From Halomontanus rarus (GTDB lineage Archaea; Halobacteriota; Halobacteria; Halobacteriales; Natrialbaceae): a DNA stretch of 64,000 nucleotides. Location of the stretch: the NCBI RefSeq assembly GCF_017357405.1, contig NZ_CP071598.1, forward strand, positions 434,001-498,000. Direction: 5' to 3'. Position numbers and translations under genes: made by a program. Below the pieces are notes generated by a model, which saw nothing but the letters and a program-made list of their open reading frames with translations, was not told the DNA's origin and ran no database searches. Below, in pieces: positions 9,418 to 59,521 of this stretch (positions are counted from its first letter, which is position 1; every line of letters starts with the position of its first letter).

Positions 9418-9439
9418 CTCACAACCGTATGATTGTAAT
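9418..9439. promoter_or_regulatory. Palindromic operator-like site, copy 1
   Basis: Left half CTCACAACCGT and right half ATGATTGTAAT. It matches the shared pattern ATTACAACC-N4-GGTTGTAAT with changes at the first two bases of the left arm and one base in the right arm. Copy 2 follows at a centre-to-centre distance of 32 bases, about three helical turns, as for cooperative binding of two dimers. Confidence 0.6.
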
Positions 9440-9449
9440 AGGCCGTTCC

Positions 9450-9471
9450 ATTACAATCATATGATCGTAAT
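9450..9471. promoter_or_regulatory. Palindromic operator-like site, copy 2
   Basis: Halves ATTACAATCAT and ATGATCGTAAT form an inverted repeat with one mismatch. An AT-rich TATA-like tract (ATACAATATATAAG) lies at 9527-9540, so the pair of sites could control a promoter reading leftwards into the decayed minus-strand frame. Confidence 0.65.
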
Positions 9472-9852
9472 TTATCGATTGGGAAAGAGCGTTCGTATGC
9501 TGCAGGCAAGTTTGTTCATCCCAGATAATACAATATATAAGATGTGTTAGAGTAGCGTCTGTTAACATTGTTGGATTCTCTGTCGGCGAAGTACGACTGA
9601 GCGTGAGTTATAAGCGTCGATCCGATCCTCGGAGCGTCGGCCGGGAACTCACGGTTGCTGACAGCGAAACCGGGTAACGCGTTCTACCGATTACGACACG
9701 AGCCGGGGGACGACCTCAGACGACCGCGATCCGGCCCGCCGAACGAAAATAAAGGCTACTATCGGGTTCCAGACGAGCGTGTTGACATCGTCGAACGACG
9801 CGAAATCGATGGCAGTCTCGGTCGGGGAATCGAGTGTCGGGTCCGAACGCGA
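9472..9852. other. Intergenic stretch downstream of the LamG beta-helix gene
   Basis: It contains the AT-rich tract at about 9524-9540 and a possible downstream AT-rich end region near 9745-9760. I see no gene on either strand. Confidence 0.4.
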
Positions 9853-12264
9853 TCAGCCGAGAGTGACGGCATCGTGCTTGTCGGCCAGGTACTGGTTGAC
9901 CTGCTCGACTTCGTCCTCGGACAGTTCTCGCTCGAACAGGAGCACTTCCGCCACGTTGGCGTCGATGAAGTCCGTGCCTCGTCGGCGGGCACCGAGCGTC
10001 AGTTCGTTGGGATAAGCGTCGGTGATGGTGTTCTCGTCCTCGATCTCCGGTGCTTTTTGACCGTCGTGGTAGACGTTCATCGACGAGTCCTGAGCGAACA
10101 CGTGAGGTTCGGTGTCCGGGTCGGCGAAGGCCACGTTGCCGTCGCCGACGCGCCAGGCGAGGACGTTCTGGCCGTCCCAGTTCCCGTAGTTCGCGATGCG
10201 CAGTCGGTTCGGCTGTGCCGCCCCGATGAGGTAGGTTTCTTTGTCCATGCTCCCGGTCCACTGACCGACAATGAACAGCGTGAGGTCACCGACGGTGACC
10301 ATCTTCTCGTTGAGGATCATGTACGTTTCGTCGGCGCGGCTGAACTGGACCGCCGGACTACCTCCCATGGCGTCGGTGGAGTAGACGGGACGGCTCTCCT
10401 CCGTACCCTGATAGCCGTAGTTCCCCACGTCCGATCGGTCCGGCCACGCTTCGATGCCACTCCCGTCGTCGAGGTGGGAGAGGACGTTAGCGTCGAGGTG
10501 CATTACCATGCCGTCGGTCACTGGGGCGTCGGTGTCGGGAACGTCCGGTGTATCGATGGTGTCGTCGTAATCCCGATCCTCCTCGAGCGGGAACCGACCG
10601 ATGTTCGCCTGCGGGCGGTCGACGATGTAGTCGACGGTGAGATTTTCGCCGGGATCGGTCCGCCACTCGAAGACGAGGTCCCACTGGCTGCCGGTCCACT
10701 CGAAGTAGTGATCGTAGCCGAACGCCGACGAGGGTGCGTCGAACGTCTTCGAGCGGAGCTCGAGCGTAACGCCGGAGTGAGAGCTGACGTCCTCGACCCG
10801 CGCCGCCGGGTCCGATCCGGATTCGAGCGTGACCGTGCCCGAGGCGACGCCGTCGCCGACGTTCCCCTGAACCACTGTCGTCGGTGAGGCGGTATCGATG
10901 AGCGCTTCGGTACCGCCGTCGCGGACGTCGTTGTTGACGAACCGGTTGTTCTGTGCGGTCCCGCCTTCGTTGATCGCAGCCGTCTGTTCTCGTTCCTCTT
11001 CGGGCCGGTCGTCGTAGATCCGCATATTCGCGATGGTGACCCCGTCGGCGCGTCGCTCCGGTACCGCCACCGGACTGTTCGTATTGTACAGGTCGATCGC
11101 TTTGCCGGTGCAGTTCTTGATCACGCCGCCGTTCAGTACCGTATTCGGCGGCCCACTGAGGACGGCTCCGCGGTTTCTCGCGCCGTCGATGTACACGTTG
11201 CTTATCGTGATCTCTCCGGATCCGCTGTGGATGTGCAGGCCTCGCCCGGCGCTGTGACTGACGATATCGCTGATCGCGACCCGGCCCTGCTGATACGTAG
11301 ACCGGAACGTCGCGTATCGGTTGTGGGCTGGAATGTCGGGACTATACTCGATGATGCTATTGATGGTCGCATCGGACGATTCGTTCAGCAATACGACGCA
11401 GCCGTTGATGTTCTTGCCGAGTATCTGGTTGACCTGTAACCGATCGACGCCACGCGTCTCGAACGCGTGATAGTCCACTCCCTCCGCGTAGATCCGATCG
11501 ACCTGGATATCGCTCGAGCGATTTTCGGGTTCGTCCGCGTCGCCGCCGGCGTCGATCCGGATGCCGATCCCGGTATCGTCCAGTTCGATATCGATGTTAC
11601 CGAGGTACACGTTCGAGACGGTGTTCATCATCACGACGTATCGTGGACTGCCCCGGACCGTGAGGTTCGGTATCTCCACGTGGTGAGCGTCTTGTGCGCG
11701 AACCGGGATCGCCCACGGCTCTCCACCCTCGTTCTCGACCGTGATCGACGCTGGAACGTCCAGAATGGTGTAACTCGGGAGCTCGACACCCGGCCCGTCC
11801 CGGAGGTCGTCGTTCCCATCCCGTTGATCGGCGGTGATGGTCGCGGGGGAGACGACGGCTACTTTCTCCTTCCAGTCTCGATCGTTCGTGAGGCTGTCGA
11901 CGGCAGCCTGTGTCACCCCGATGAAGTCCTCACCGCTCGCGATGTGCTCGTCCGTACTATCGGCGTGGTAGACCCCATCCTCGTCCTTCCAGACGACGAC
12001 GTCCGCATCTCTGGCTGCAGTGTGAACGTGCTCGACGTCGATCGAGTGCAGGTTGAACAGGTCGTGGTTTTTCGCGTCGACGTGCTGGTTCCACGGGCGA
12101 ACCTCGTCGGTGTCCGGACCGTCGTGGGAAGCCGCTGCCGATCCGGCCATCATCGCGCCGACTCCGCCGGCACCTAACAAACTCAGCGCCGTTCGTCGGG
12201 TGAGTGACGTTCCGTCGTCTCCTTGAAGTTGCTCCGCTGTCTCTGGTGGGTCATGATTCACCAT
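9853..12264 (-). CDS. Tat-exported beta-helix protein with C-terminal LamG-like domain
   Basis: An 803-residue paralogue of the protein at 2621-4324. The Tat signal is at about residues 20-45 (SLTRRTALSLLGAGG, ending AAAS). Residues about 60-500 are beta-helix repeats (ITISNVYIDGA, NTVLNGGVIKNC). Residues about 500-595 are the C-terminal module shared with the paralogue (NVGDGVASGTVTLESG to DYIVDRPQANIGRFPL). Residues about 615-803 form a concanavalin/LamG-type jelly roll (MVMHLDANVLSHLDDGSG, SPAVQFSRADETY, ANVAEVLLFERELSEDEV), a common carbohydrate-binding module. A TATA box sits at 12288-12296. It is probably a secreted polysaccharide-binding or -cleaving protein. Confidence 0.8.
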   Translation of the reverse strand: MVNHDPPETAEQLQGDDGTSLTRRTALSLLGAGGVGAMMAGSAAASHDGPDTDEVRPWNQHVDAKNHDLFNLHSIDVEHVHTAARDADVVVWKDEDGVYHADSTDEHIASGEDFIGVTQAAVDSLTNDRDWKEKVAVVSPATITADQRDGNDDLRDGPGVELPSYTILDVPASITVENEGGEPWAIPVRAQDAHHVEIPNLTVRGSPRYVVMMNTVSNVYLGNIDIELDDTGIGIRIDAGGDADEPENRSSDIQVDRIYAEGVDYHAFETRGVDRLQVNQILGKNINGCVVLLNESSDATINSIIEYSPDIPAHNRYATFRSTYQQGRVAISDIVSHSAGRGLHIHSGSGEITISNVYIDGARNRGAVLSGPPNTVLNGGVIKNCTGKAIDLYNTNSPVAVPERRADGVTIANMRIYDDRPEEEREQTAAINEGGTAQNNRFVNNDVRDGGTEALIDTASPTTVVQGNVGDGVASGTVTLESGSDPAARVEDVSSHSGVTLELRSKTFDAPSSAFGYDHYFEWTGSQWDLVFEWRTDPGENLTVDYIVDRPQANIGRFPLEEDRDYDDTIDTPDVPDTDAPVTDGMVMHLDANVLSHLDDGSGIEAWPDRSDVGNYGYQGTEESRPVYSTDAMGGSPAVQFSRADETYMILNEKMVTVGDLTLFIVGQWTGSMDKETYLIGAAQPNRLRIANYGNWDGQNVLAWRVGDGNVAFADPDTEPHVFAQDSSMNVYHDGQKAPEIEDENTITDAYPNELTLGARRRGTDFIDANVAEVLLFERELSEDEVEQVNQYLADKHDAVTLG

Positions 12265-12287
12265 ACCACGACTGTCTGCCGGAACTA

Positions 12288-12296
12288 CTTATAATT
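12288..12296 (-). promoter_or_regulatory. TATA box of the LamG beta-helix gene
   Basis: On the minus strand an AATTATAAG-type box lies 24-32 bases before the start at 12264. The rest of the 12265-12648 gap shows no gene; another AT-rich element at 12617-12624 serves the plus-strand isomerase. Confidence 0.55.
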
Positions 12297-12648
12297 ATTC
12301 GTTACGGTCATTCCGCTGGCCGCTTCCCCCAGTCGCTCAACTATTCGGAACCGATCGACCGTGTCCAGCCGAGCAGTGTAACGAGTGTAGGTTTCAGCCG
12401 TCCGGAACGTGTCCGTCCACGCCGGTCGAAAAACGCGTGTCGAAACCACGTCGTCGGAACCCGTTCGGTGTCCTACCGCGCGCGGCCGCCGTCGTCGTAA
12501 GGCCGCTGGCGACAGAGGGTCGTCTGCGTACAGAATTGCCTCACGATCTCGGGCCTCGTCCCGGTATCTGGAAACCGGTTATATTCATAAAACAGATGAT
12601 GCACAGGAATCAGAAGGTTAATTTGGTTCCTCGTCGTCGATGCTTCGT

Positions 12649-13491
12649 ATGTCAGCGCACAACTTCGTCGTCAGCGGCTTCGCCGACGAGATTGGGCCCG
12701 GCCTCGAGACACAACTCGACGTGCTCGGGGCCCTCGGTATCGATCACCTGGACCTCCGCGGGGTGGAAGATACGAACGTGCTCGATCTCTCCGACAAGCA
12801 GATCGAACGCGTCGCCGGAGCGCTCGAGGAGCGCGGGATCGGCGTCACCTCGATCGGCTCGCCGATCGGCAAGATCGACGTTACCGGCGATTTCGAACCC
12901 CACTTCGAGCGGTTCGAGACGGCACTCGAGATGGCGAAGACGTTCGACACGGAGTACATCCGACTGTTCTCCTACTACATTCCGGACGACGACGACCCAG
13001 ACGACTACCGGGAGGAAGTACTTCGACGCATGCGAGCGAAAGTCGATCGAGCCGAGGAGGCCGGCGTCACGCTCCTACACGAAAACGAGAAGGATATCTA
13101 CGGCGACACGCCCGAGCGGTGCCGGGATCTGCTGACGACGATCGACTCGCCGAACTTTCGGGCGACATTCGATCCCGCGAACTTCCTCGAGGTCGGCATC
13201 ACGGCCTATCCCGATGCGCTCTTGGATGTTATCGAGTACGTCGAACAACTGCACATCAAAGACGCGACGTTGGGTGAACGCGGCGAGATCGTTCCCGCTG
13301 GCGAGGGTGACGGTCGGATTCCCGAGATGCTCGCGGCGCTCAAAGCACGCAGCTTCGAGGGCACCGTCTCGCTCGAGCCGCGCCTCGTCGTCGCAGGCCC
13401 GAGAAGCGGCTACAGCGGCCCCGTCGGGTACGAGGTTGCTGCTGAGGCGCTGTTCTCGTGTCTGGAGAGCGTACACGCGACCTATGAGTAA
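12649..13491 (+). CDS. Sugar phosphate isomerase/epimerase (xylose-isomerase-like TIM barrel)
   Basis: A 280-residue member of the AP-endonuclease-2/xylose-isomerase-like superfamily. Visible features are the N-terminal strand FVVSGFADEIGPG, VTLLHENEKDIYGD (metal-binding Glu), ATFDPANFLEVG (metal-binding Asp), QLHIKDA (His), and a final Glu in TVSLEPRL. This Glu/Asp/His/Glu set is the metal site of the family. The ATG at 12649 is preferred over 12640 because GTTAATTT at 12617-12624 is a TATA-like box 25-32 bases before it. It stands alone between the beta-helix gene and the pseudogene zone. Its substrate is unknown; a keto/aldo-sugar or 2-keto-inositol type is likely. Confidence 0.8.
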   Translation: MSAHNFVVSGFADEIGPGLETQLDVLGALGIDHLDLRGVEDTNVLDLSDKQIERVAGALEERGIGVTSIGSPIGKIDVTGDFEPHFERFETALEMAKTFDTEYIRLFSYYIPDDDDPDDYREEVLRRMRAKVDRAEEAGVTLLHENEKDIYGDTPERCRDLLTTIDSPNFRATFDPANFLEVGITAYPDALLDVIEYVEQLHIKDATLGERGEIVPAGEGDGRIPEMLAALKARSFEGTVSLEPRLVVAGPRSGYSGPVGYEVAAEALFSCLESVHATYE

Positions 13492-13660
13492 TACCCGTCT
13501 GATGTGGACTCGAGCACACGTCTCTGCACTGTAATTGGTAACTTGGTTGTTTTCTGTTCTGCTGTGTGAAACGGTATCATCGTTGACTCGAGTATCCTGC
13601 TCTCCAGTGAACAGATACTCACGAGACTATTTGTGAGCTCGGCGATGCTATCGAAGCCAC

Positions 13661-13711: not shown

Positions 13712-13853
13712 CCGTCTCTGGTCCGGTTTCTACGGGCGGAGCAGGCCGAGTGACTCGAGGCCTGACTCCGAGGCGGTTCACGAGATGAGTGCGATTCTCA
13801 GCCGTGTTATCCTTGATTTTCTCGAGAAGACGATCAGCTGTCACAGCAGACGA

Positions 13854-16066: not shown

Positions 16067-16831
16067 ATGTCGACCGAGAATACATATCTCGTCAAGGCGG
16101 CCGCGACGAGCTTTCGAATCATCGAAACACTCCACGAACTCGACGGTGCGGGGGTTGCCGAACTCGCAGACCACCTCAACATGCCCAAGAGTACGGTTCA
16201 CGACCACCTTCGGACGCTCACGAAAATCGAGTACCTCGTCCAGCGCGACGGAGAATATCACGTCGGCGTTCGCTTCCTGGAACTCGGCGGCTACGTTCGA
16301 AACGAACTCAAACTCCACCGCGTGGCAGCTCCAGAAATCAAAAAATTAGCCGAGGACACGGGCGAACACTCGAATCTGGTCGTCGAGGAACACGGAATGG
16401 GAATCTTCCTCAATAAGGTCAAGGGAAAAGACGCCGTGCAACTCGATACGCACGTCGGGATGCGGGTCCACCTTCACACGACTGCGACGGGAAAAGCCAT
16501 CCTCGCGTTCCTCCCGGAGGAGCGAATCGACGAGATAATCGAACACCACGGTTTACCTGCCGTAACGAAGAACACGATTACCGACAGGGAGACGCTCAAG
16601 GAGGAACTGGCGGAGATCCGCGACCGGGGATACGCCATCGACGACGAGGAACGCGTCGAGGGAATGCGCTGTGTCGCCGCCCCGCTTCGCGATTCGACGG
16701 GACACCCGATCGGTGGGCTAAGCGTCTCCGGTCCGATGAGTCGATTCAACGACGACGTGTTCGTCGAAGAGATTCCTAATAAAGTCCTCAGCACCGCGAA
16801 CGTGATCGAAGTCAATATGACGTACGCCTGA
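16067..16831 (+). CDS. IclR-family transcriptional regulator
   Basis: A 254-residue IclR protein. A winged helix-turn-helix spans about residues 8-70 (GAGVAELADHLNMPKSTV, HDHLRTLTKIEYL) and an effector-binding GAF-like domain spans about 80-250 (GKAILAFLPEERIDEII, DDEERVEGMRCVAAPLRD, GGLSVSGPMSRF). IclR proteins act as dimers or tetramers and respond to small carboxylic or sugar-acid ligands. ATG 16067 is chosen because the in-frame codon at 15971 adds a non-conserved tail. It is one of three IclR genes in the window and sits inside the pseudogene zone, so its original target genes may be the broken ones around it. Confidence 0.88.
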   Translation: MSTENTYLVKAAATSFRIIETLHELDGAGVAELADHLNMPKSTVHDHLRTLTKIEYLVQRDGEYHVGVRFLELGGYVRNELKLHRVAAPEIKKLAEDTGEHSNLVVEEHGMGIFLNKVKGKDAVQLDTHVGMRVHLHTTATGKAILAFLPEERIDEIIEHHGLPAVTKNTITDRETLKEELAEIRDRGYAIDDEERVEGMRCVAAPLRDSTGHPIGGLSVSGPMSRFNDDVFVEEIPNKVLSTANVIEVNMTYA

Positions 16832-20666: not shown

Positions 20667-20667
20667 G

Positions 20668-20697: not shown

Positions 20698-21465
20698 ATG
20701 AAGATCGACGACTTCCCCGAGGAAGGGGCACGAAGCGTCACGACGGTCGAGACCAACTTTCGGCTGCTAGAAGCGTTGCGGAAGTCGGAGGGCGCAGGAG
20801 TAACCGAACTCGCGGACGAACTCTCGCTAACGAAGTCGACCGTCCACAAACACCTGACGACGCTCCGCAAATTGGGATACATCGTCAAGGAGGGAACGAC
20901 CTACCGACTCGGAATCAGTCTCCTCGGGCTCGGGACCGCCGCGCGTTCCCAGCTCCCGTTCTACGAGACCGCCAAAGAACCGCTGGAGAAACTCTCGGAT
21001 ACGACCGACGAGGTTGCGACGCTAGTCGTCCCAGAGCACGGGTACGGCGTGTACGCTTTCAGGGAGGGGCCGGTCGACGACAGGAAAACACACCGACAGG
21101 CCGGAGCTCGGATTCCGCTCCACAGGACAGCGGGCGGAAAGGCGATCCTCGCCTATACGCCCACGGAAATCCGTGATCGGATCTTCCGCCATCGGGATGT
21201 CAAATTCGACAGCGAGGAACGGGATACGCTGGCACGGGAACTTCAAAATATTCGCGATACGCGAACAGCGTACGACCGAGGCGAGTATATCGACGATTGG
21301 TACTGCGTGGCGGTGCCGATCACGGACGCGGACCGGAACGCGGTCGGAGCCGTCACTGTTTCCGGGCCTGCAGACCGAATGGAGGGAAAACTCTCAAGGA
21401 ACGATATTCCGAATCTCATCGGTCACACCGCGAACTCCATCCAAAATCGTCTTCGATCCAACTAA
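20698..21465 (+). CDS. IclR-family transcriptional regulator
   Basis: A 255-residue IclR protein. The helix-turn-helix is at about residues 20-75 (GAGVTELADELSLTKSTVHK, LTTLRKLGYIVKEG) and the ligand domain at about 85-250 (GGKAILAYTPTEIRDRIF, DDWYCVAVPITDADRN, GAVTVSGPADRMEG). It is divergent from the solute-binding-protein gene and followed after 135 bases by a sulfatase-fold gene, so it probably controls one or both. A perfect inverted repeat is at its own promoter, and the shared 22-base palindrome lies directly after its stop codon. Confidence 0.88.
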   Translation: MKIDDFPEEGARSVTTVETNFRLLEALRKSEGAGVTELADELSLTKSTVHKHLTTLRKLGYIVKEGTTYRLGISLLGLGTAARSQLPFYETAKEPLEKLSDTTDEVATLVVPEHGYGVYAFREGPVDDRKTHRQAGARIPLHRTAGGKAILAYTPTEIRDRIFRHRDVKFDSEERDTLARELQNIRDTRTAYDRGEYIDDWYCVAVPITDADRNAVGAVTVSGPADRMEGKLSRNDIPNLIGHTANSIQNRLRSN

Positions 21466-21466: not shown

Positions 21467-21488
21467 ATTACAACCGTATGGTTGTAAT
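21467..21488. promoter_or_regulatory. Palindromic operator-like site, copy 3 (best match)
   Basis: ATTACAACC, a GTAT spacer, then GGTTGTAAT: perfect 9-base arms. It begins one base after the stop codon of the IclR gene and lies 112 bases before the sulfatase-like gene, whose promoter it probably controls. Confidence 0.75.
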
Positions 21489-21600: not shown

Positions 21601-23001
21601 ATGTCCACACACGAACCGTCCCCGAACGTTCTCTTGGTGTTAACGCGCCAGCAGCGGTGGGATACTGTAGGCGCATACGGGAACCCGATGGGACTGACGC
21701 CGACGCTCGACGAACTCGCCGCACAGGGGACGCTGTTGAAACAGGCGATAACGCCACAACCGACGTGTAGCGCTGGTAAGGTGAGTATGCTAACGGGCAA
21801 GTATGCGACGGAGGTCGGCGTCTGGCGCGGTTCGCAACCGGTCTTCGATGAGCGCACCCTCGGGCACTACTTCAGCGAAGCCGGATACGACGTCGGATTC
21901 GTCGGCGGGTGGCACCTCGCGGGGACCTTCGACGAACCAGTCCCGCCGGAGAAGCGTGGCGGGTTCGAAGACTTCTGGATCGGCGCGGACTCCGCGGAGT
22001 TCACTACCCGGCCGAACGAGGGAACTCTCTACGACGAGGACGGTACACCGGTCGAATTCGACGGGTACCGGGCCGACGCGTTTACCGATTTTGCGGAGAC
22101 CGCGATCGAGTCACTCGAGGACCCGTTCTGCCTCGTCGTCTCGTATCTCGAACCGCACCACCAGAACGATATGCAGACGTTCGTCGCACCGGACGGATAC
22201 GCGGAGCGACACACCTTGAATCCGTATATCCCCGACGACCTGCAGGGCCGCCCCGGCGATTGGTACGAGGAACTCCCGGACTACTACGGGATGTGTAAGC
22301 GACTCGACGAGTGCGTTTCCCGCCTCCTCAGGACGCTCGAAGACGAGGGGTCCCGCGACGACACGATCGTCGCGTACACGTCGGACCACGGCTGTCACTT
22401 CCGGACGCGACCGGGAGAATACAAACGAACGTGCCACGAATCGGCAGTCCGAGTACCGGCGATCCTCTCCGGGCCGGGGTTCGATACCCGGCGAACGATC
22501 GATCAGGTTCGGTCATTAGTGGACCTCGGTCCGACGCTCCTCGACGCGGCGGGTGTTGCGATTCCCACAGAGATGGACGGCGAAAGTTTTCTTCCGCTCG
22601 CACGGGGCGAGGCCCCCGAACGAGAGGGAGAAGCGTTCATCCAGATCAGCGAAGCCGAGATCGGGCGCGCGGTCCGGACCGACCGGTGGAAATACGCGAT
22701 CTCTGCGCCCTCCGAGAACGGGTGGCGAGCCGGCAGCGGCGATCCGGACAGCAACGTCTACATGGAGCGGTATCTCTACGACCTTCACCGAGACCCCGCC
22801 GAGTCGGTCAACCTCATCGGCCGACACGACTACCAAGACGTCGCGGATTCGTTGCGAGAACGGCTCCGAACGTACCTCCAGGACGTAGAGGGGGCGGATC
22901 CGGAAATCAGAACCTTCGACGTCCCCGGTTACCACGATTTAGCGATGCGAGCAAATCCAGTTCGCTTCGGATACCGCAACCAATCCAGCGGGTTCGAGTG
23001 A
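21601..23001 (+). CDS. Sulfatase-fold protein with atypical active-site residues
   Basis: A 466-residue alkaline-phosphatase/sulfatase superfamily member. The overall fold markers are present: NVLLVLTRQQRWDTVG at the N-terminus, LTGKYATEVG, YTSDHGCHF (metal Asp and His) and YKRTCHESAVRVP. Two key positions look unusual. The first metal-ligand position, normally Asp in TDQQRWD, is Arg16. The formylglycine motif, normally C-x-P-S-R or C-x-A-G-R, reads C56-S-A-G-K60. It may be an altered or inactive sulfatase, or a related phosphohydrolase. No signal peptide is seen. It follows an IclR gene and a palindromic site. Confidence 0.75.
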   Translation: MSTHEPSPNVLLVLTRQQRWDTVGAYGNPMGLTPTLDELAAQGTLLKQAITPQPTCSAGKVSMLTGKYATEVGVWRGSQPVFDERTLGHYFSEAGYDVGFVGGWHLAGTFDEPVPPEKRGGFEDFWIGADSAEFTTRPNEGTLYDEDGTPVEFDGYRADAFTDFAETAIESLEDPFCLVVSYLEPHHQNDMQTFVAPDGYAERHTLNPYIPDDLQGRPGDWYEELPDYYGMCKRLDECVSRLLRTLEDEGSRDDTIVAYTSDHGCHFRTRPGEYKRTCHESAVRVPAILSGPGFDTRRTIDQVRSLVDLGPTLLDAAGVAIPTEMDGESFLPLARGEAPEREGEAFIQISEAEIGRAVRTDRWKYAISAPSENGWRAGSGDPDSNVYMERYLYDLHRDPAESVNLIGRHDYQDVADSLRERLRTYLQDVEGADPEIRTFDVPGYHDLAMRANPVRFGYRNQSSGFE

Positions 23002-34522: not shown

Positions 34523-35299
34523 TCAGAAGTTCTCGTCGTACTCGACGTTGAGTTCGATCACGTTGGCGGCGCTCTGCACTCTGTCGGGAATCGTCTCTTC
34601 GTACCGCTCGCCGCGCATCCGGCTGAGCGGTCCCGTGAGACTGAGCGAGCCGATCGGATACCCATTCTTGTCGCGGACGGGGGCCGCGACGCTGCGCAGT
34701 CCGCGAATCCACTCCTCGTCCTCGACCGCGTACCCGCGCCGTCGAGTCTCCTCGAGTTCATCGAGGAGGACGTCGCGATCGACGATCGTTTCTTCGGACC
34801 TACGTCTCAATCCGTGCTGGTCGAGAATCTCGTCGCGTTCGTCGTCCGGGAGGTATGCCAGAATCGCCTTTCCGAGGCCCGTCTGGTGGAGGTGAACGCG
34901 TTTTCCGACGTGGAGGTTCGTGTTGACGGCTCGGTCGCCACCCGTCTGATAGACGAAAACGCCGAGACCGTGTTCCTCGACCATGACGTGAGCGAGGTCG
35001 CCCGTCTCCTCGGCGAGTCGATCGGCTTCGTTTCTGGCGGCCTGAACGAGCTCGACGCGTTCCCAGACGAACTGACCGAAATCCAAAAATCGAAGTCCGA
35101 TGCGATACGTTCCGTTCTCGTGGACGACGAACTCGCACTCTTTCAACGTTTGCAGATGGTTGTGTACCGTACTCTTTGGAATGTCTAAGTGATCGGCCAG
35201 TTCCGTTACTCCGGCGCCATCCCGTCGCTTGAGCGCTTCGACAATCCTAAGCGTCGTAAGGGATGCTTGAACCATGCTCGGATTGTCCGTCGTGTTCAT
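34523..35299 (-). CDS. IclR-family transcriptional regulator of the tetronate-like operon
   Basis: A 258-residue IclR protein. DNA-binding domain at about residues 10-72 (GAGVTELADHLDIPKSTVHN, LQTLKECEFVVHENG) and effector domain at about 85-255 (GKAILAYLPDDERDEILDQ, DEEWIRGLRSVAAPVRDK, GSLSLTGPLSRMRGE). It lies upstream of the aldolase-kinase-ThuA genes on the same strand, 187 bases before the aldolase, and most likely controls them in response to a sugar acid. A CCTGT-AAT-ACAGG inverted repeat is found about 180 bases upstream of its start. Confidence 0.88.
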   Translation of the reverse strand: MNTTDNPSMVQASLTTLRIVEALKRRDGAGVTELADHLDIPKSTVHNHLQTLKECEFVVHENGTYRIGLRFLDFGQFVWERVELVQAARNEADRLAEETGDLAHVMVEEHGLGVFVYQTGGDRAVNTNLHVGKRVHLHQTGLGKAILAYLPDDERDEILDQHGLRRRSEETIVDRDVLLDELEETRRRGYAVEDEEWIRGLRSVAAPVRDKNGYPIGSLSLTGPLSRMRGERYEETIPDRVQSAANVIELNVEYDENF

Positions 35300-35828: not shown

Positions 35829-36845
35829 TTAAAGGTCTATATCGACGCGTTCACCGGTCCACGCGGCTTCGTAGGCCGCTTCGGTCAGCGCTGTCGCGTA
35901 CAGTCCGTCGTAGACGGTCGCCGGCGGTTCGGTACCCTCGCGAATCGACTCGATGAACGCCTCGGTTTTCGGCTGCACGGAGCCCGGCGAGACGTTCGGA
36001 TCGGTAATGGTCCCCTCGCGATCGATTTCGCGATACCGTCGGGGGTTCCACTCGCGACCGTCAATACAGGTCGCGCCGTCTTCGCCCCAGATACGGATGT
36101 GTTCGTCGACGCGAGGCGCGTCGCCGGAGACGGCGATCGACGCGACCGCGCCCTCCTCGAACTGGACGGTCAGGGTCGCCTGCGTGTCGACGCGTTCGGC
36201 CTCGTCGTGGAAGATCATGTCCGCCGAGACGGACGTCGGCGTGAGGCCGGTCATCCAGAGTACGGAGTCGACGAGGTGGCTTCCGGTATCGTAGAGCTGC
36301 CCGCCGCCGCTCAGGTCCGGATCGGCCTTCCAGGATCCTTCTACCGCGTTGATCCAGTCCTGTGTGACCTCCGCTGTGATGAAATCCGGTGACTCCCGCC
36401 CGTCCTCGTGCCAGTACTCTCGCGCCTCGATGAACGCCGACGCGAGGTGTCGCTGGTAGCCGAGCATAACCGTTCGATCGCTCTGCTCGGTACGTTCGAC
36501 GATCTCGTAGGCGTCCTCGAGGTTCGTACACAACGGTTTCTCACAGAGCACGTGGAGCCCGTTGTCGAGTCCGGTCAGGAGTTGCTCGGCGTGGAGACCG
36601 TGAGGCGTCGTAACCGCGATCGCGTCTATCTCCTCGTTTGCAATCATCTCCTCGTAATCGGTGTACTGAGACTCCTCCGGAACACCGAACTCCGCTGCAG
36701 CAGTTCGAAGGTTCTCGTCGTCGATATCCGTAATAGCGGTGAGTTCGCCGCTCTCGGACCGGCCGAGCTCTCTACCTGTAACCTTTCCTAGGAATCCCAT
36801 GCCGATAACGCCGACTCGTAGTGTGGGCTCGTCTGTATCAGCCAT
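35829..36845 (-). CDS. Gfo/Idh/MocA family NAD(P)-dependent oxidoreductase
   Basis: A 338-residue sugar dehydrogenase. Rossmann domain at about residues 1-125 (RVGVIGMGFLGKVTGREL; HVLCEKPLCTNLEDAYEI, with the EKP catalytic Lys) and C-terminal alpha/beta domain (GGGQLYDTGSHLVDSVLWM; TGSHLVD carries the conserved His). Acts on an aldose, inositol or sugar acid; the neighbouring tetronate-type kinase and aldolase make a sugar-acid oxidation possible. A TATA-like element at 36873-36881 lies 28-36 bases upstream. Confidence 0.85.
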   Translation of the reverse strand: MADTDEPTLRVGVIGMGFLGKVTGRELGRSESGELTAITDIDDENLRTAAAEFGVPEESQYTDYEEMIANEEIDAIAVTTPHGLHAEQLLTGLDNGLHVLCEKPLCTNLEDAYEIVERTEQSDRTVMLGYQRHLASAFIEAREYWHEDGRESPDFITAEVTQDWINAVEGSWKADPDLSGGGQLYDTGSHLVDSVLWMTGLTPTSVSADMIFHDEAERVDTQATLTVQFEEGAVASIAVSGDAPRVDEHIRIWGEDGATCIDGREWNPRRYREIDREGTITDPNVSPGSVQPKTEAFIESIREGTEPPATVYDGLYATALTEAAYEAAWTGERVDIDL

Positions 36846-37296: not shown

Positions 37297-37318
37297 ATTA
37301 CAACCGTATGCTTGTAAT
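37297..37318. promoter_or_regulatory. Palindromic operator-like site, copy 4
   Basis: ATTACAACCGT and ATGCTTGTAAT differ from the best copy by one base. It starts about 17 bases after a TATA-like GTATATAGG, so a bound repressor would cover the expected transcription start of a rightward promoter. Confidence 0.7.
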
Positions 37319-37825: not shown

Positions 37826-40186
37826 ATGACAGCTGATCGTTCGAGAGCAGTGTACCAAGATGAATCGATGTCTGTCGAGAGGCGGGTCGAAGACCTCCTT
37901 GAACGAATGACTCTCGAGGAGAAAGTCGCACAGTTGACGTCGATATCACCGATCCCGGTCGCCGGATTCCCCGGAAGTGACGACGCACTCATCGACGAAG
38001 ACGGTACCGTCGACCGTGAGAACGCTCGCGAACTCTTTGCGGACGGTGTCGGACACATCACTCGTATCGGAGGCGGTACCGGGTTCGAACCCGAGCGCGC
38101 TGCCGCTGTAACCGACGAGCTTCAGGAGTTGCTCGTCAACGAGACGCGTCTCGGAATCCCAGCGATCGCTCACGAAGAGTGCTTAGCCGGTTACATGGGA
38201 CCAGGCGGGACCGTGTATCCCCAATCTATCGGACTGGCGAGCACGTGGGAACCGGATCTCATCGAGGAGATGTCCGAGCGGATTCGCGAACAGCTTCTGG
38301 CTATCGGGACGGCACACGCGCTCTCGCCCGTGCTCGACATTGCTCGAGACCCGCGCTGGGGACGTACCGAAGAGACGTTCGGTGAGGACCCACAGCTGGT
38401 CGCAGAAATGGCAAGTGCGTACGTCCGTGGACTCCAGGGCGAGAGTCCGGAAGCGGGCGTTTCGGCAACGGTCAAGCACTTTGCCGGGCACGGTGCCGGT
38501 GAGGGTGGTAAAAATCGGCCGACTGTCCACCTGGGTGAACGGGAACTTCGCGAGGTCCACCTCTTCCCGTTCGAGGTCGCCGTTCGGGAGGCAAACGTCG
38601 AGTCGGTGATGAACGCCTACCACGATATCGACGGTGTTCCGTGCGCGGCGGACGCTAGCTTACTTACCGGCGTGTTGCGCGAGGAGTGGGGTTTCGATGG
38701 CACAGTGGTTTCCGATTACTTCAGCGTCGTCCACCTTATCGAGGAGCACAACGTCGCCAGCACGGAACTGGAGGCGGCCGTCCAAGCGCTCGAAGCCGGT
38801 ATCGACGTCGAACTCCCTGCTATCGACTGCTACCATCGGCTCGTCGATGCCGTTGAGTCCGGTGCTGTCTCGAAAGCGTCCGTCGACGATGCTGTCCGAC
38901 GCGTTCTCAGACAGAAGTTCCGGAAGGGTCTGTTCGAAACCTATAGTGCCGACCCGGCAGACGCTCGAGCGGCATTCGGTCCCGGTACAAACCGTGAGTA
39001 CGCACGGAAACTCGCCCGCCAATCACTGACACTCCTCAAAAACGAGGGAACTCTCCCGCTCGGGGATCCCGATTCAGTCGCCGTTGTCGGTCCGAAAGCC
39101 GATGCGCCCGTGGGCCAGCTCGGTGATTACACCTATCCTGCTCACTATCCTGACGAGGAGTCGAACCGCGAGATCGTAACGCCCCGCGAAGCGTTCGAAT
39201 CACGGCTTGGGAAAACTGCCGTCACGTACAGTGAAGGGTGTACCACGACCGGGCCCGGGACCGATGGGTTCGAAGCGGCCGTCGCCGCTGCCGAACACAG
39301 CGAGGTGGTCGTTGCGTTCGTCGGGGCACGTTCGGCCCTGTCGCTATCTGACGATGTTGCGGCCCGTCGCGAGCGATCCGATCTTCCGACCAGTGGCGAG
39401 GGCGCTGACGTAACCGATCTTTCACTCCCGGGCGTACAGACCGATTTGCTTCGGGAAGTGCACGCAACAGGAACTCCGCTGATAGTCGTCGTCGTCAGCG
39501 GGAAACCGCACACGATCACGTGGGCTGACGAGCACGCCTCCGCGATCGTTCAGGCGTGGCTTCCGGGTGAAGAAGGAGGTCACGGTATCGCTGACGTACT
39601 CTTCGGTGACCACAATCCGAGTGGTCGACTCCCGCTCTCGATTCCGAAGACCGTCGGTCAACTCCCAGTATACTACAGTCGGCGACCCAACAGTCGCGAG
39701 GAACGTCACGTCTACACCGACAGTGATCCGCTCTATCCCTTCGGTTACGGCCTTTCGTACGCGGAATTCGACTATCACAATCTCGAACTCTCCGATGACG
39801 AGGTCGACCCAACGGAGACGATTACTGTTTCGGTCACCGTCGAGAACACGAGCGAACGCGCCGGCCACGAGGTCGTCCAGCTGTACGTCCACGAGCGCGA
39901 ACCGTCGCTCGTTCGACCGGTCCAGGAACTCAACGGGTTCCATCGCATCTATCTCGAACCCGACGAGACCGCTCGTCTCTCGTTCGAACTGTCACCGACG
40001 CAGCTAGCATCCTACGACCGGAAGATGGATTTCGTCGTCGAACCCGGGTCGTTCGAGGTCCGAATGGGTCGCTCGGCCGCTGACATCGAGGCGACCGAGA
40101 CGTTCGACGTCACGGGGACATCACAGAGGGTCTCTCCGAACGACCGGGTATACTCACCGGATATAACCGTCGAGGAGGAAATCTGA
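37826..40186 (+). CDS. Glycoside hydrolase family 3 (beta-glucosidase/beta-xylosidase)
   Basis: A 786-residue GH3 enzyme. N-terminal TIM barrel at about residues 20-370 with ALSPVLDIARDPRWGRTEET, VKHFAGHG and the nucleophile Asp297 in GTVVSDYFSV; alpha/beta sandwich at about 400-620 (SLTLLKNEGTLPLGD; QAWLPGEEGGHGIADVLFG); C-terminal fibronectin type III-like domain at about 680-760 (ERAGHEVVQLYVHEREPS). No signal peptide, so it should hydrolyse imported oligosaccharides. It is followed after 82 bases by a solute-binding protein and importer genes on the same strand, which makes uptake and hydrolysis of one substrate likely. Confidence 0.9.
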   Translation: MTADRSRAVYQDESMSVERRVEDLLERMTLEEKVAQLTSISPIPVAGFPGSDDALIDEDGTVDRENARELFADGVGHITRIGGGTGFEPERAAAVTDELQELLVNETRLGIPAIAHEECLAGYMGPGGTVYPQSIGLASTWEPDLIEEMSERIREQLLAIGTAHALSPVLDIARDPRWGRTEETFGEDPQLVAEMASAYVRGLQGESPEAGVSATVKHFAGHGAGEGGKNRPTVHLGERELREVHLFPFEVAVREANVESVMNAYHDIDGVPCAADASLLTGVLREEWGFDGTVVSDYFSVVHLIEEHNVASTELEAAVQALEAGIDVELPAIDCYHRLVDAVESGAVSKASVDDAVRRVLRQKFRKGLFETYSADPADARAAFGPGTNREYARKLARQSLTLLKNEGTLPLGDPDSVAVVGPKADAPVGQLGDYTYPAHYPDEESNREIVTPREAFESRLGKTAVTYSEGCTTTGPGTDGFEAAVAAAEHSEVVVAFVGARSALSLSDDVAARRERSDLPTSGEGADVTDLSLPGVQTDLLREVHATGTPLIVVVVSGKPHTITWADEHASAIVQAWLPGEEGGHGIADVLFGDHNPSGRLPLSIPKTVGQLPVYYSRRPNSREERHVYTDSDPLYPFGYGLSYAEFDYHNLELSDDEVDPTETITVSVTVENTSERAGHEVVQLYVHEREPSLVRPVQELNGFHRIYLEPDETARLSFELSPTQLASYDRKMDFVVEPGSFEVRMGRSAADIEATETFDVTGTSQRVSPNDRVYSPDITVEEEI

Positions 40187-54426: not shown

Positions 54427-55473
54427 TCATTCCAGTTGCGACTCCTGTGGCTTCAGCACCGCCTTGATGTACTCGCTCTCGTCCATCTTGCGGAAACAGG
54501 ACTCCCACTCCTCGAGCGGCGCGACGTGACTGACGATCGGCTCGAGGTCGAGCTGGCCGGTCGAGAGCATGGAGATGACGTTCTCCCAGACGGGCCAGTT
54601 GTGCGAGAAGCTCCCCTCGATCGTCGCCGCCTTCTGGACGAGCGGGTCCATGCTGTACTCCATCGGCTCCGGTCCCCAGCCGACCTTCGTGATCGTGCCG
54701 TCGGGTCGGACCGCGTCCATCGCCACCTCCAGCGTCGCGGAGACGCCGGCCGAATCGACGACGGCGTCGACGCCGAGTCCGTCGCCGAGGTCCTCGACGT
54801 ACTCGACGGGATCGTCCGTCGTCGTGACGGCCGCCCCCATCTCCTTGGCGACCTCGAGTCGGCGCTCGTCCTCGGGAAGGCCGCTGACGATCACGCGCCC
54901 GCCGCTCAGGCTTGCCATGGCCGCACAGAGGATGCCGATCGGTCCGGGGCCGATGACGAGGACGTCGTCGCCGGGATTGACGTCGTTGTTGACGCAGACC
55001 GCGTTGTACGCGACGCTGCAGGGCTCGGTCAGCGCGGCGTACTCGAACGCGAGGTCGTCGGGGATGTCGTGCAGACAGCGCTCGGGCGCGGTCACGTAGT
55101 GGGCCATCGCCCCGTCGACACCGTACCCGAATCCCTTCCGGTCGGGGTCGAGATTGTACAGTCCCTGTCGGGACATGGGTGAGTCCTCGTCGATGACGGC
55201 GGCGGTTTCGGAGACGACCCGGTCGCCGACGTCGAACGAGGTGACGTCCTCGCCGAGTTCGGCGACGACCCCGCCGAACTCGTGGCCGAGGGTGCACGGG
55301 TACTCCACCGGCCAGCTGTGAGAGCCGTGCCACTGGTGGATGTCGCTGCCGCAGATTCCGACGGCCCGAACCTCGATCAGCACGTCCTCGGGGCCGGGCT
55401 CGGGGACGGGAACCTCCTCGAGGGAGACCGTCTCGGGCTCGGTGTTGACGAGGGCCGGCATCGAGTCGGTCAT
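54427..55473 (-). CDS. Zinc-dependent medium-chain alcohol/sugar dehydrogenase
   Basis: A 348-residue MDR-family enzyme. Catalytic zinc ligands are Cys in VGICGSDIHQW, the His-Glu of TLGHEFGGVV, and a later acidic residue; the NAD-binding motif is VLVIGPGPIGILCAAMA. The structural four-cysteine zinc loop usual in such dehydrogenases is not evident: residues about 90-120 carry only Asp and Met in its place. Sorbitol-, threonine- or galactitol-type substrates are possible. First gene of the dehydrogenase-isomerase-sulfatase unit. It starts at ATG 55473. Confidence 0.85.
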   Translation of the reverse strand: MTDSMPALVNTEPETVSLEEVPVPEPGPEDVLIEVRAVGICGSDIHQWHGSHSWPVEYPCTLGHEFGGVVAELGEDVTSFDVGDRVVSETAAVIDEDSPMSRQGLYNLDPDRKGFGYGVDGAMAHYVTAPERCLHDIPDDLAFEYAALTEPCSVAYNAVCVNNDVNPGDDVLVIGPGPIGILCAAMASLSGGRVIVSGLPEDERRLEVAKEMGAAVTTTDDPVEYVEDLGDGLGVDAVVDSAGVSATLEVAMDAVRPDGTITKVGWGPEPMEYSMDPLVQKAATIEGSFSHNWPVWENVISMLSTGQLDLEPIVSHVAPLEEWESCFRKMDESEYIKAVLKPQESQLE

Positions 55474-55642
55474 TCGTCGACCCGCTCCGTTTCCCCGCAA
55501 TCGTTCGCGACGCCTCGCGTCGTGCGGTCGTCGTCCGCTCCATCTACAGTCGATACTGGTCGTCGATTCGACGGGTGATTTCGCATCGGTATCACGTTGT
55601 GAAGGGTCGGGTATATATCTTGGTGCACCGGTTCGCCGAGTC

Positions 55643-56428
55643 TCATCGGAGCGCGTCCTCGACTGATGCTCCCTCGTAGACGATTTCCTCGAGCGCGTCG
55701 AGGATCCGCGTCGCGTCCTCGCGCTGCCAGATGTTGCGACCGACGGTGACCCCGCGGCCCCCGGCCTCGACGAACGTCTGGACGTCCCGCAGGAACGCCT
55801 CGTCGCTGACGGTTGCGCCGCCGCTCATGAGCACGGGCATTCGCCCGGCGACGTCGACGGCCCACTCCACGTCCGCGAGCGTTCCGGGGTGTTTGATCTT
55901 GGCCAGGTCGGCGCCCAGTTCCAGGGCGGCCCGCGCGGCGTAGGCGACGGTGTCCGGCGCGTCGTGATCGTTGACCCCCTGTCCGCGCGGGTACGACCAG
56001 AGGACGACGGGGAGATCGGCGTCGCGAGCCGACTCCTGAACGTCGCGGAACTCGGCCATCATGTCCGCCTCCCGGTTGGAGCCGAAGTAAATCGTGTACC
56101 CGAGCGCGTCCGCGCCGAGTTCGGCGGCGTACTCGACCGTCCAGTTCTGGGGCGCGTACCGGTCGCCGGTCACCATGTTCGTCTTTCCGTTGAGCTTCGC
56201 GACGAGGTTCACGTCCTCGGAGTACGACGGGTAGTAGGTCTCGGCGAGCCCCTTCTGGACGCCGAGTCCGGTCACGGCGTCGTGGGTCGCCAGCTCGAAG
56301 ACGGTCGCCGGATCGGCCCGTTCCGGGATCGATTCGAACACGCTCGGCCCGCGCTCTAGGCCGTGGTCCATCGCGATGACGATCGACTTTCCGTCTCGAC
56401 AGAGCAGAGTGTCGGCTACTGATTGCAT
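55643..56428 (-). CDS. Class I aldolase of the FbaB/DhnA/LsrF family
   Basis: A 261-residue Schiff-base aldolase: SIVIAMDHGLERGPS (substrate phosphate), NGKTNMVTGDRYAPQNW, YTIYFGSNREADMMAEF, the Lys in GADLAKIKHPGT (likely Schiff-base Lys), and VLMSGGATVSDEAFL and GVTVGRNIWQ (phosphate site). It cleaves a ketose phosphate into triose-like products. The PfkB-type kinase is divergently transcribed 139 bases away, and the dehydrogenase, isomerase and sulfatase genes follow on the same strand, so the group makes sense as one pathway. A CTTATCA box on the minus strand at about 56459-56465 may be the promoter. Confidence 0.85.
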   Translation of the reverse strand: MQSVADTLLCRDGKSIVIAMDHGLERGPSVFESIPERADPATVFELATHDAVTGLGVQKGLAETYYPSYSEDVNLVAKLNGKTNMVTGDRYAPQNWTVEYAAELGADALGYTIYFGSNREADMMAEFRDVQESARDADLPVVLWSYPRGQGVNDHDAPDTVAYAARAALELGADLAKIKHPGTLADVEWAVDVAGRMPVLMSGGATVSDEAFLRDVQTFVEAGGRGVTVGRNIWQREDATRILDALEEIVYEGASVEDALR

Positions 56429-56566
56429 GAACTCACCCGGGAGTTCGAGCGACTGTCTCTTATCAGTTTGGGATCCGTTCGTGAGCCCCGGCGGGTGGGT
56501 CGTCACACGAAAACGATTATCACGGTCCGCGGTCCACGTCAACGGGAGTACGGAGTACCACGACAC

Positions 56567-57727
56567 ATGACACTCGACCACGAAACGCGGATGCACATCG
56601 AGCGGTGTCGGTCGTCGCTCCCGTCGTCGGCGTCCCGAGCGCCGGTCGTCTTCGGGTTCGACGGCGTCGTCGACCGGGTTCGAACGGTCGTCGCCGAACG
56701 AACCGGACCGGAGCAGTTCGAACGGATGACGAGCCTCGAGGAGTTCGGCTCTCGAATCACCGACTCCGCCGCGCTCGACGCGTCGTGTAGCATCGAGTGG
56801 TTCGAGCGCGGAACCCGACCCGGTGGACACGTCTCGCACCTCGGGCGGGCGTTCGAGCGACTCGGGGCGACGCCCACGCTCGTCGGAACGTTCGGCGAGC
56901 CGCCGGTCGAGGCGTTCCGCGAGGAGTACGATCGCGCCCGGCTCGTCTCGATCGGCGAGCCCTCGACGACCGACGCGATCGAGTTCGACGACGGAAAGGT
57001 GATGCTGAGCGACAGCGGACGGTTATCGACGCTCGACTGGGAGACGCTGTGCGAGGCGGTCGGGTTCGAAGACCTCGTTGAGCACGTCGACGGATCGACG
57101 GCGATGGGGACGGGCTACTGGTCGACGATTCCCCGATTGCCGACGATCTGGCGCGGTCTCGCGGACGATCTCTGGCCGGTACTTTCGGACCCACCGAGGG
57201 CCGTTCTGGTCGACCCCGGCGACGTGCGCAGGCTCGGTGACGACCGGCGAAGCGGGCTGGACGAACTGTCCGCGCTCGACCGCGCCGTCCCCGTTACCGT
57301 GAGCGCGAACCGACCGGAGTGCGACGAACTGGCCGCGATGTGCGGAATCGCCGATCCGCCGACGTCGCTGTCGTCGCTCGCGGGGGAGCTTCGCGAACGC
57401 CTCGGCGTATCGCGGTTCGTCGGCCACTCCGTCTCGACGGCGACCGTCGCCACCGCGGACGGGACCGCGTCGGTTTCGGTTCCGCGCTGTCCGGATCCGG
57501 TCCTGACGACCAGCGCCGGCGATCACTTCAACGCCGGGCTGTTGCTCGCCCACCGCTGCGACGTTCGCGGCGGAGCTGCGCTCGTCGTCGCGAACGCGCT
57601 CGCGGGGTGGTTCGTCCGGACCGGGCGTCCGCCGACGTACGACGAACTGCAAGAGTTCGTCGACGAGTACGACGAACAGTTCGAGGGAGAATCGGGATCG
57701 GAATCGATCGATTCGTTGGACGGGTGA
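56567..57727 (+). CDS. PfkB-like carbohydrate kinase
   Basis: A 386-residue ribokinase-superfamily kinase. N-terminal VVFGFDGVVDRVRTVV resembles the GFDGFVD motif of a less-studied kinase branch; the substrate lid contains GHVSHLGRAFERLGATP; the catalytic motif is TTSAGDHFNAGLLLA, in which Asp is the base and the usual GAGD becomes SAGD. It would phosphorylate a ketose before cleavage by the divergent aldolase. ATG 56567 is favoured because the upstream in-frame region overlaps the divergent promoter. Confidence 0.8.
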   Translation: MTLDHETRMHIERCRSSLPSSASRAPVVFGFDGVVDRVRTVVAERTGPEQFERMTSLEEFGSRITDSAALDASCSIEWFERGTRPGGHVSHLGRAFERLGATPTLVGTFGEPPVEAFREEYDRARLVSIGEPSTTDAIEFDDGKVMLSDSGRLSTLDWETLCEAVGFEDLVEHVDGSTAMGTGYWSTIPRLPTIWRGLADDLWPVLSDPPRAVLVDPGDVRRLGDDRRSGLDELSALDRAVPVTVSANRPECDELAAMCGIADPPTSLSSLAGELRERLGVSRFVGHSVSTATVATADGTASVSVPRCPDPVLTTSAGDHFNAGLLLAHRCDVRGGAALVVANALAGWFVRTGRPPTYDELQEFVDEYDEQFEGESGSESIDSLDG

Positions 57728-57769
57728 GACCGGGTTCGCAGACGACGATACGTGACGGTACCGGATCGA

Positions 57770-58513
57770 TTAGCCACCTGCGCGCTCGACCATGTCCAGA
57801 AGCGTTCGACCACCCACCTCGAGCGAATCGGCCGCTGAATCCGGATGGTCGTGTTCGTAGACCACCCACTCGCAGCCGGCGTTCCGGGCCGCCTGCACGG
57901 ACTCGAACACGTCCACGTCGCCGTCGCCGAGTTCGACGGACGTGTGCGTGTCGTGGTTCATGTCTCTCACGTGCACCATCGGACACCGACCCTCGAGTCG
58001 CTCGAGGATCGCGAGCGGATCGATTCCTTCGGAACTGGCCCAGCCGATATCGAGTTCGTAACCGACGTGCCGGTTCGTCTCCTCGATCAGCCGGTCGAAC
58101 GCCGTCTCCTCGCCGAAATCGGTGAACTCGTTACCGTGATTGTGATAGAGTAACCGGAGTCCGTGGTCCGCGAGTCGCTCGCCGCGGTTGGAGAGGTAGG
58201 TCGCGGTCTCGCGGACGGCCGCCTCGGATTCGAAGTGGCGGTCGTTCAGGTAGGGGATCACGACCGTATCGCAGTCGAGCGTCTCGGACGCGGCGACGAC
58301 GCTCCCGAGTTCCGACTCGAGCGTGTCGGATCTGACGTGCATTCCCGCGATCGATACGTCGCTCGACTCTATCGCCTCCCTTGCGGCTTTCGGATTGTCC
58401 GGAATCGTCGCCAGTTCGATGCCGTCGAACGCCGTCCCGTCGACGGCGTCGATGAGCTGGGGCAGCGGCATGTTACGATCCTGAATCGTAAAGAGTTGAA
58501 TTGCAGTTTTCAT
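57770..58513 (-). CDS. Sugar phosphate isomerase/epimerase
   Basis: A 247-residue xylose-isomerase-like protein: MKTAIQLFTIQDRNMPLPQL at the start, RLLYHNHGNEFTDFGEE (metal region), VGYELDIGWASSEGIDP (Asp), MVHVRDMNHDTHTSVELGD (His) and WVVYEHDHPDSAADSLEVG (Glu). This subgroup is common in inositol and keto-sugar pathways. It converges with the PfkB kinase gene. Palindromic site copy 5 lies 430 bases upstream. A deleted copy of the same type is at 35621. Confidence 0.85.
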   Translation of the reverse strand: MKTAIQLFTIQDRNMPLPQLIDAVDGTAFDGIELATIPDNPKAAREAIESSDVSIAGMHVRSDTLESELGSVVAASETLDCDTVVIPYLNDRHFESEAAVRETATYLSNRGERLADHGLRLLYHNHGNEFTDFGEETAFDRLIEETNRHVGYELDIGWASSEGIDPLAILERLEGRCPMVHVRDMNHDTHTSVELGDGDVDVFESVQAARNAGCEWVVYEHDHPDSAADSLEVGGRTLLDMVERAGG

Positions 58514-59521
58514 GGTGAAAGCAACTTACGCGACGTATACCGGGTTCTCGAAAACGACGCGACGACTCCGCGGACGGCTGCCGTTCTCGGTCGTCTCGTC
58601 GTGTGGCTCCGTCGTGTCGAACTGGTCGGTGACGACACGAACGGATCTCCTGTGCGTCGTCATACACTCGATACCTCTTCGAGTACTCACTTGTGTGTTG
58701 TGGTAGGTTTTCGAAGACGCAAAGTAGCCGGAATCGCCGTTCTCACCAGTCGAACTTGAAGCGATCGTCCTCGAGTTCAGCTTTTAGACGAAATACGCTC
58801 GTTTCTCCGCGCTGCGGCCCGCGAGACCGAACCTCAGCCCGACCGGCCCCCACGACATCTCGTTCATCTCAGCCGAACGTCTTTTCGACGTCCGCTATCG
58901 ATTCCGTTGTATTAATGCGATACCTGTCGTGTAGAACGAAGTATTACGGACGTACGCTTGTAATGTATGCCGCGAGTGTGTCTGAGGGGAGAGCTCTCCT
59001 CGGAGAGACGAATCCGTCTCACGAGCGAGAAATTACGTCACGACTGTTCTATCACCGTCGAGCACGCCGGTCAGTGTCGTACCGTCGGGACGGCGCGTTC
59101 GTGGGACTCGAACGGGCAGCATCCGTATCGAGACAGGTCTTCCACCAAAATCGGACCACGGACGTCAGAGTATCGACCGTTCGGCAGTTCGGTTCAACGG
59201 GATGCGTTCGGCCTGGATGAACGACACTTGCGAATTAGTACCATGGACCGGCGCTGAGCGTCACTCGAAACCGGACAAACACGCGGTAGCTCACGCGACG
59301 GCATCGGATATCGGATCGTCGGTTAGCCACAGTTCGCTCCTACGGAGGCGCAAGACGACTCGGTTTCGGTCGTCTTCCCGGGGACGGTTCCTTCCCTTAC
59401 GGCGCGTTTTGTCGTCGGCGTCTGGAAGACCGGAACGTCGGGCGAGAGACGAAGAATACTCCGTCGAAGCGTCCACGAGATCGATCGTCAACAGCTTCGG
59501 CGGTTCGGGGCCGACCGGCGG
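58514..59521. other. Long intergenic stretch without a gene
   Basis: About 1 kb between the isomerase promoter side and the end of the GH97 gene. It holds a TATA-like GTATTAATG at 58909-58917 and the palindromic site at 58943-58964. No coding pattern stands out on either strand. Confidence 0.4.
58943..58964. promoter_or_regulatory. Palindromic operator-like site, copy 5
   Basis: ATTACGGACGT and ACGCTTGTAAT: the outer six bases of each arm fit the shared pattern with two mismatches in total. It starts about 25 bases after GTATTAATG, again placing it over an expected transcription start. Confidence 0.55.

Follow-up and report, generated by a model that had tools for sequence, protein, structure and literature searches.

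Five copies of a 22-base palindrome are scattered over a 64,000-nucleotide stretch of a haloarchaeal genome (C2:434001–498000, hereafter the window), and comparisons within this genome and across haloarchaea suggest that the palindrome is probably a family-level operator of haloarchaeal IclR-family transcription factors, many diverged paralogs of which would share one consensus in the same cell. The genome comprises two contigs totaling 5.17 Mb, the chromosome C1 (4.02 Mb) and the replicon C2 (1.14 Mb), on which the window lies. Pooled over sites, the consensus reads ATTACAAHCRTAYGDTTGTAAT. Its arms TTACA and TGTAA, ten bases apart, and the central TA are nearly invariant in the matrix, and the centre is usually CRTAYG. 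The window contains the following copies:

Copy 1, 9418–9439, CTCACAACCGTATGATTGTAAT: the leading member of a tandem pair, located between the convergent UxuA and LamG genes; 29.7 bits
Copy 2, 9450–9471: second of the pair, 32 bp from copy 1, centre to centre; 37.7 bits
Copy 3, 21467–21488: perfect consensus arms, starting at the second base after an IclR stop codon and 112 bp before a sulfatase gene
Copy 4, 37297–37318: divergent gap between a GFO/IDH gene (−) and a GH3 gene (+); found by pattern scan and matrix
Copy 5, 58943–58964: the weakest, with four differences; 28.1 bits

An earlier note on this DNA had described these copies as one shared palindrome with 0–4 differences, located outside genes and beginning with a tandem pair, and all of this was borne out. 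A scan of the window allowing at most three mismatches recovered copies 1 to 4 (with 3, 3, 0, and 1 mismatches) and found none in 100 shuffles, and copy 5 was recovered by a second whole-genome pattern and by the matrix. All five palindromes are genuine and well outside what chance would give. Codon-scored gene calls place all of them between genes; a 175-aa open reading frame with a GTG start spans 58943 and is not called as a gene by this scoring. Genome-wide, the three-mismatch tolerance gives 30 places, with none for a reversed-pattern control. The two patterns combined yield at least 41 distinct sites, 15 on C1 and 26 on C2, a lower bound, since the counts of 41 leave out nine extra places of at least 10 bits from a matrix rescan of fetched regions. 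In 671 kb of sequence, most of it fetched around sites, the matrix scored 81 hits of at least 12 bits, compared with 0–2 for each of five column-permuted matrices. All 41 sites are intergenic by codon-based gene calls, in fetched sequence of which 76% is coding. A motif found at random within genes genome-wide, which had been named beforehand as grounds for abandoning the operator, is thus not what the genome contains.

The readers of the palindrome are very probably IclR proteins, the family that the earlier note had put forward and that adjacency, correlation across genomes, and absence of the motif from IclR-less genomes all support. As would be expected of an IclR operator, the motif occurs only where IclR genes exist and stands beside them above chance. 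Of the 20 IclR_C matches in the genome, 16 are on C2. Twelve of the 41 sites lie within 1 kb of such a match, as opposed to 1.05 expected under uniform placement (0.04 on C1, 1.01 on C2); one of the 12 adjoins the match at C2:757797, which is weak and not called as a gene. With the expectation doubled for intergenic placement, this proximity has p = 6e-4 on C2 and 1e-6 on C1. Two further sites, C2:828928 and C2:261663, add another two IclR genes with a site inside this distance, so that a site accompanies 12 of the 20 IclR genes.

The association extends across haloarchaea. Among 116 haloarchaeal genomes (the present one, G000, included), motif number follows IclR number with a rho of 0.60, rising to 0.82 within its own family (n = 28), and the motif is present in 66 of the 98 IclR-bearing genomes and in none of the 18 IclR-less ones (p = 3e-8). 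Sampled haloarchaea carry up to 25 IclR genes per genome. In a second genome of the same genus, the search pattern that gives 43 places here gives 39. When an exact, stricter pattern was run against a collection of 84,980 species, 41 of the 45 stretches hit were haloarchaeal and four were bacterial, a number equaled by the 3.7 chance matches expected at even base composition. An IclR gene lies within 1 kb of the chosen site in 21 of 49 loci that were fetched from other genomes on the basis of strict sites and in 18 of the 41 haloarchaeal stretches of the collection scan, which are partly the same loci and include one where the IclR frame, read at its longest, contains the site. Counted from the IclR genes, a site of at least 12 bits is found within 1 kb of 14 of 35 genes ranking high in the E-value list (13 of 34 without L129) and of 18 of 28 genes in ten IclR-poor genomes, selected for motif presence and carrying 2–4 IclR genes each. 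One G020 gene is in both samples, in either of which chance would supply 0.2–0.3 such genes.

It is improbable that the palindrome is bound by a non-IclR protein, be it a different sugar regulator or one that organises DNA, in whose regulon IclR genes would merely be frequent members. A binder of this kind would suit the remoteness of most sites from start codons, the convergent arrangement of nine of the 38 gaps containing sites, and the one site that adjoins a TrmB gene. However, TrmB-type proteins, which are sugar regulators of the same cells and the only other family counted, vary in number independently of the motif across haloarchaeal genomes (rho 0.08), and the 18 genomes lacking both IclR genes and motif include 15 with TrmB genes. 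By inspection, the half-sites also resemble the bacterial IclR boxes given in passages of PMC8222616.

The earlier note's assignment of the sites to one regulator is not supported, as the same motif stands beside diverged IclR paralogs. In a tree of 47 IclR proteins, 19 from G000 and 28 from the ten IclR-poor, motif-bearing genomes, those with a site are scattered throughout, and the ten genomes have no orthologous IclR group in common. A supported split (95/89) separates the three IclRs of G069, one of them a long, unsure row, from all those of G020, G045, G058, G079, G088, G096, and G097. Extended to the whole genome, the single-regulator model would make one IclR the master of all 41 sites and the remaining IclR genes its targets. 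The uniform consensus, the lack of detectable paralog-specific variation among sites, and the solo sites distant from any IclR gene are compatible with such a master, but it is unlikely given the absence of a common ortholog in genomes with so few IclR genes. It also sits poorly with G020, in which both IclR genes abut a site, and with the Halomontanus rarus plasmid, which at that locus is without copy 3 and its adjoining IclR gene together. Under a family-level operator, each IclR paralog, often adjoining its own sugar-catabolic cluster, would bind the same consensus. In 73 IclR–site pairs pooled from this genome and loci L050–L174, with the ten genomes' own IclR loci left out, the site is 3′ of the regulator gene in 49 and 5′ in 24, and 29 of the 49 are at most 150 bp from the stop codon.

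The genes surrounding the window copies include three encoding IclR proteins, in agreement with the earlier note and confirmed by profile matches:

7601–8749, + strand: mannonate dehydratase (UxuA), 3′ end toward copies 1 and 2
9853–12153, − strand: beta-helix/LamG-like protein, 3′ end toward copies 1 and 2; LamG-like annotation in H. rarus
16067–16831, + strand: IclR-family regulator by profile match, nearly identical paralog of C2:939002
20698–21465, + strand: IclR-family regulator (PF01614, 86 bits; PF09339), best candidate for copy 3
21601–23001, + strand: sulfatase, likely target of copy 3
34523–35299, − strand: IclR-family regulator, 2 kb from copy 4
35829–36845, − strand: GFO/IDH/MocA oxidoreductase, divergent from copy 4
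37868–40186 (alternative start 37826), + strand: GH3 glycoside hydrolase, downstream of copy 4
57770–58513, − strand: sugar isomerase-like TIM barrel (AP_endonuc_2), start toward copy 5
59522–61318, − strand: GH97 glycoside hydrolase, 3′ end toward copy 5

The IclR protein encoded at 20698–21465 would most likely bind copy 3, directly behind its gene, and copy 3 would serve as an upstream activating element for the sulfatase. The remaining copies would act on nearby sugar genes by way of one or more of the genome's 20 IclR proteins. A matrix scan of the window found no site of at least 8 bits near the IclR gene at 16067–16831; the nearly identical gene at C2:939002 has a site 53 bp from its 3′ end.

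The IclR–sulfatase gene pair of copy 3 recurs in all eight named plasmid records examined, which are the seven best hits of one search and the best hit of another. In Haloferax alexandrinus, Natronococcus, Haloterrigena turkmenica, and Haloterrigena salifodinae, a palindrome that keeps the arms and varies in its centre follows the IclR stop codon by 1–14 bp, scoring 33, 23, 18, and 16 bits, respectively. In NZ_CP099392 (L226), the palindrome of the IclR–sulfatase gap keeps these arms around another centre, ATGTACAT, which suggests that the CRTAYG centre is less important than the arms. In Haloferax, the cluster extends beyond the gene pair to a sugar ABC transporter and a galactonate dehydratase. 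TATA-like stretches can be seen by eye between the site and the sulfatase start in several of these gaps, a site–TATA–sulfatase layout from which we infer the geometry of an upstream activator.

Some window sites are also conserved in the H. rarus plasmid, the nearest named match, which covers 65% of a 22-kb query at 96.7% identity. Copies 1 and 2 are kept there in a 96%-identical region (copy 1 at 35.4 bits, copy 2 identical), and a site stands at the same offset as copy 4 behind a 150-bp stretch that is 71% identical to the one preceding copy 4. Two genomes of genus g2 retain an orthologous IclR 3′ end together with its site, and the next 560 bp have diverged. In this one orthologous pair, the gap does not align beyond the site, and a conserved small gene between the site and the next gene was rejected. 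In two other alignment sets, the sites were not aligned in register, making them uninformative.

Several observations weigh against a shared IclR operator. In this genome, 29 of the 41 sites stand more than 1 kb from any IclR gene, and 8 of the 20 IclR genes are more than 1 kb from any site. The motif is missing from 32 of the 98 IclR-bearing genomes, some of which have 11–17 IclR genes (G073, G095, G098). Of nine IclR–sulfatase modules (the copy 3 locus and the eight records), four have no site of at least 8 bits, namely those of Halomarina, Halomicrobium, Haloarcula, and Halapricum, all Haloarculaceae (L225, L228, L230, L231). The nearest facing start lies at a median of 366 bp, compared with 127 bp at random positions, an unexpected distance for an operator, and the nine convergent gaps are no fewer than at random intergenic positions (21%). 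Finally, comparing the helix-turn-helix columns of the regulators with the bases of their sites in 46 non-redundant pairs gave 5 of 375 tests with p ≤ 0.01, where 3.75 were expected; this null result, of limited power, fits interchangeable sites. A different operator may be in use in the IclR-rich, motif-less genomes and in the Haloarculaceae modules. Several f3 genomes are rich in IclR genes yet lack the motif.

The position of the sites bears on how they act. Gaps with sites are long, with a median of 948 bp versus 423 bp for length-weighted random gaps. A start codon is faced by 29 of the 41 sites, by none from closer than 112 bp; if the most upstream possible starts are used, the median is 338 bp, and 4 of 33 sites come within 80 bp (46 sites, 13 of them without a facing start). 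This distal placement could reflect control regions of great length, promoters that escaped notice, or looping. The repressor regulon proposed in the earlier note is supported as far as a transcription-factor operator is concerned. Its repressor part is less certain, and IclR operators that work by classical repression where transcription starts appear doubtful. In their favor, TATA-like stretches are visible before copies 4 and 5, XacR represses its own gene in addition to its other role (passages of PMC6995148), and a semi-palindrome is reported over the start region of the xacR promoter (passages of PMC6085418). On the other hand, XacR, GacR, RhcR, and MscR are described in passages of PMC11519228 as haloarchaeal IclR activators of catabolic genes, and not one of the 41 sites is within 110 bp of a called facing start. 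The claim that copies 4 and 5 follow directly on TATA-like boxes survives for the stretches themselves and does not clearly generalise: around ~104–108 haloarchaeal sites, TATA-like words are modestly raised at ~60–80 and 100–120 bp from the site in 20-bp bins, and a finer, symmetrised count did not sharpen these bumps, so that a fixed TATA spacing was rejected.

A bolder picture, which we put forward tentatively and with less than even confidence, is that up to about twenty diverged IclRs in each polysaccharide-eating haloarchaeal cell share one operator consensus, placed mostly distal to starts and often just behind the regulator's own gene. If true, the shared distal operator would create an overlapping, cross-talking regulon under enhancer-like or looping control, and not a set of separate local switches.

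The earlier note had also specified that the operator would fall if the palindrome were part of a mobile repeat. The palindrome occurs in many copies, 26 on the 1.14-Mb replicon versus 15 on the chromosome, as a mobile or structural repeat without a regulatory role might. Yet when 1.2-kb flanks were compared with the site masked, no common sequence unit appeared around the sites. With all sites intergenic and the motif tied to IclR genes across haloarchaea, a repeat of this kind is exceedingly improbable, and it was rejected on the masked flanks. What the flanks share are homologous genes, most of them encoding IclR proteins and a few being duplicated genes, together with unexplained stretches of 30–130 bp at varying distances from the sites. 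One stretch of 30–82 bp recurs with 76–87% identity near C2:5688, C1:1799576, C2:523488, and C2:198318, at differing distances, and is a separate small repeat and not part of the palindrome.

XacR is said, in the abstract of Johnsen et al. (2015), to have a palindromic operator. Like the regulators proposed here, this protein of Haloferax volcanii pentose catabolism is a haloarchaeal IclR beside a sugar cluster, with a semi-palindromic operator at its own promoter (passages of PMC11519228, PMC6995148, PMC6085418, and PMC10448506). It is described there as one regulator for one pathway, whereas the motif here spans many paralogs; these passages contain no sequence for the XacR operator. A PF00920 search in five Haloferax-group genomes returned one copy each and did not thereby locate the xac locus. 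GacR (galactose), RhcR (rhamnose), and MscR (mannitol/sorbitol) are, in passages of PMC11519228, IclR-family activators of sugar catabolism, as proposed here; the passages do not state a binding motif for them.

Bacterial IclR operators, according to passages of PMC8222616, follow GKTYCRYW3-4RYGRAMC (group 1) or TGRAACAN1-2TGTTYCA (group 2). The haloarchaeal sites share with them the palindrome, a TTxCA-like half-site, and tandem arrangement, three helical turns being among the spacings reported in those passages. They differ from group 1 in half-sites 4–5 bp further apart and in the CRTAYG centre, and by inspection belong to neither group: the half-site ATTACAA is similar to GKTYCRY, but its C and the partner G are separated by a distance of 13, against 8–9 in the consensus. 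Most sites here lie 110–730 bp from facing starts, in contrast to the bacterial sites, which according to the same passages are most frequent at −22 and very rare between −400 and −300 within the range searched (−400 to +50). A literature search covering titles, abstract openings, and selected passages did not return the ATTACAAHCRTAYGDTTGTAAT motif, and we do not claim that it is unpublished. Only a handful of haloarchaeal IclRs are named in the literature so covered, and a common operator would provide a handle for mapping sugar regulons from sequence. It poses the question of how up to twenty paralogs keep their signals apart with one shared DNA word, and the remoteness from start codons, in which these sites differ from bacterial IclR sites, is relevant to how archaeal activators act at a distance.

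The control of scattered sugar genes, as suggested in the earlier note, is visible as a link and statistically modest. Genes flanking the sites include members of GH2, GH3, GH5, GH28, GH29, GH32, GH51, GH67, GH78, and GH97, and, by Pfam, UxuA, sugar isomerases, and GFO/IDH enzymes. Carbohydrate genes border 20 of 38 site gaps, compared with 6 of 20 random gaps of at least 200 bp (one-sided Fisher p = 0.085), under a strict sugar list set after the Pfam results, which admits glycoside hydrolases, polysaccharide lyases, UxuA, AP_endonuc_2, GFO/IDH, and MR_MLE and counts as non-sugar the sulfatase, DHDPS, ABC parts, epimerase, DegT, FAA hydrolase, and alcohol dehydrogenases. By replicon, the counts are 7 of 14 site gaps versus 1 of 8 random gaps on the chromosome and 13 of 24 versus 5 of 12 on C2, which is rich in carbohydrate genes anyway, as its qualifying random gaps indicate. 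Sites C1:879495 and C1:3918599 (L019, L026) lie beside duplicated enolase-superfamily genes of ~94% DNA identity; one of these two loci has an IclR gene and the other does not. Next to an arabinofuranosidase gene, site C2:752492 stands in almost 8 kb without a called gene (L040, about 630–8620).

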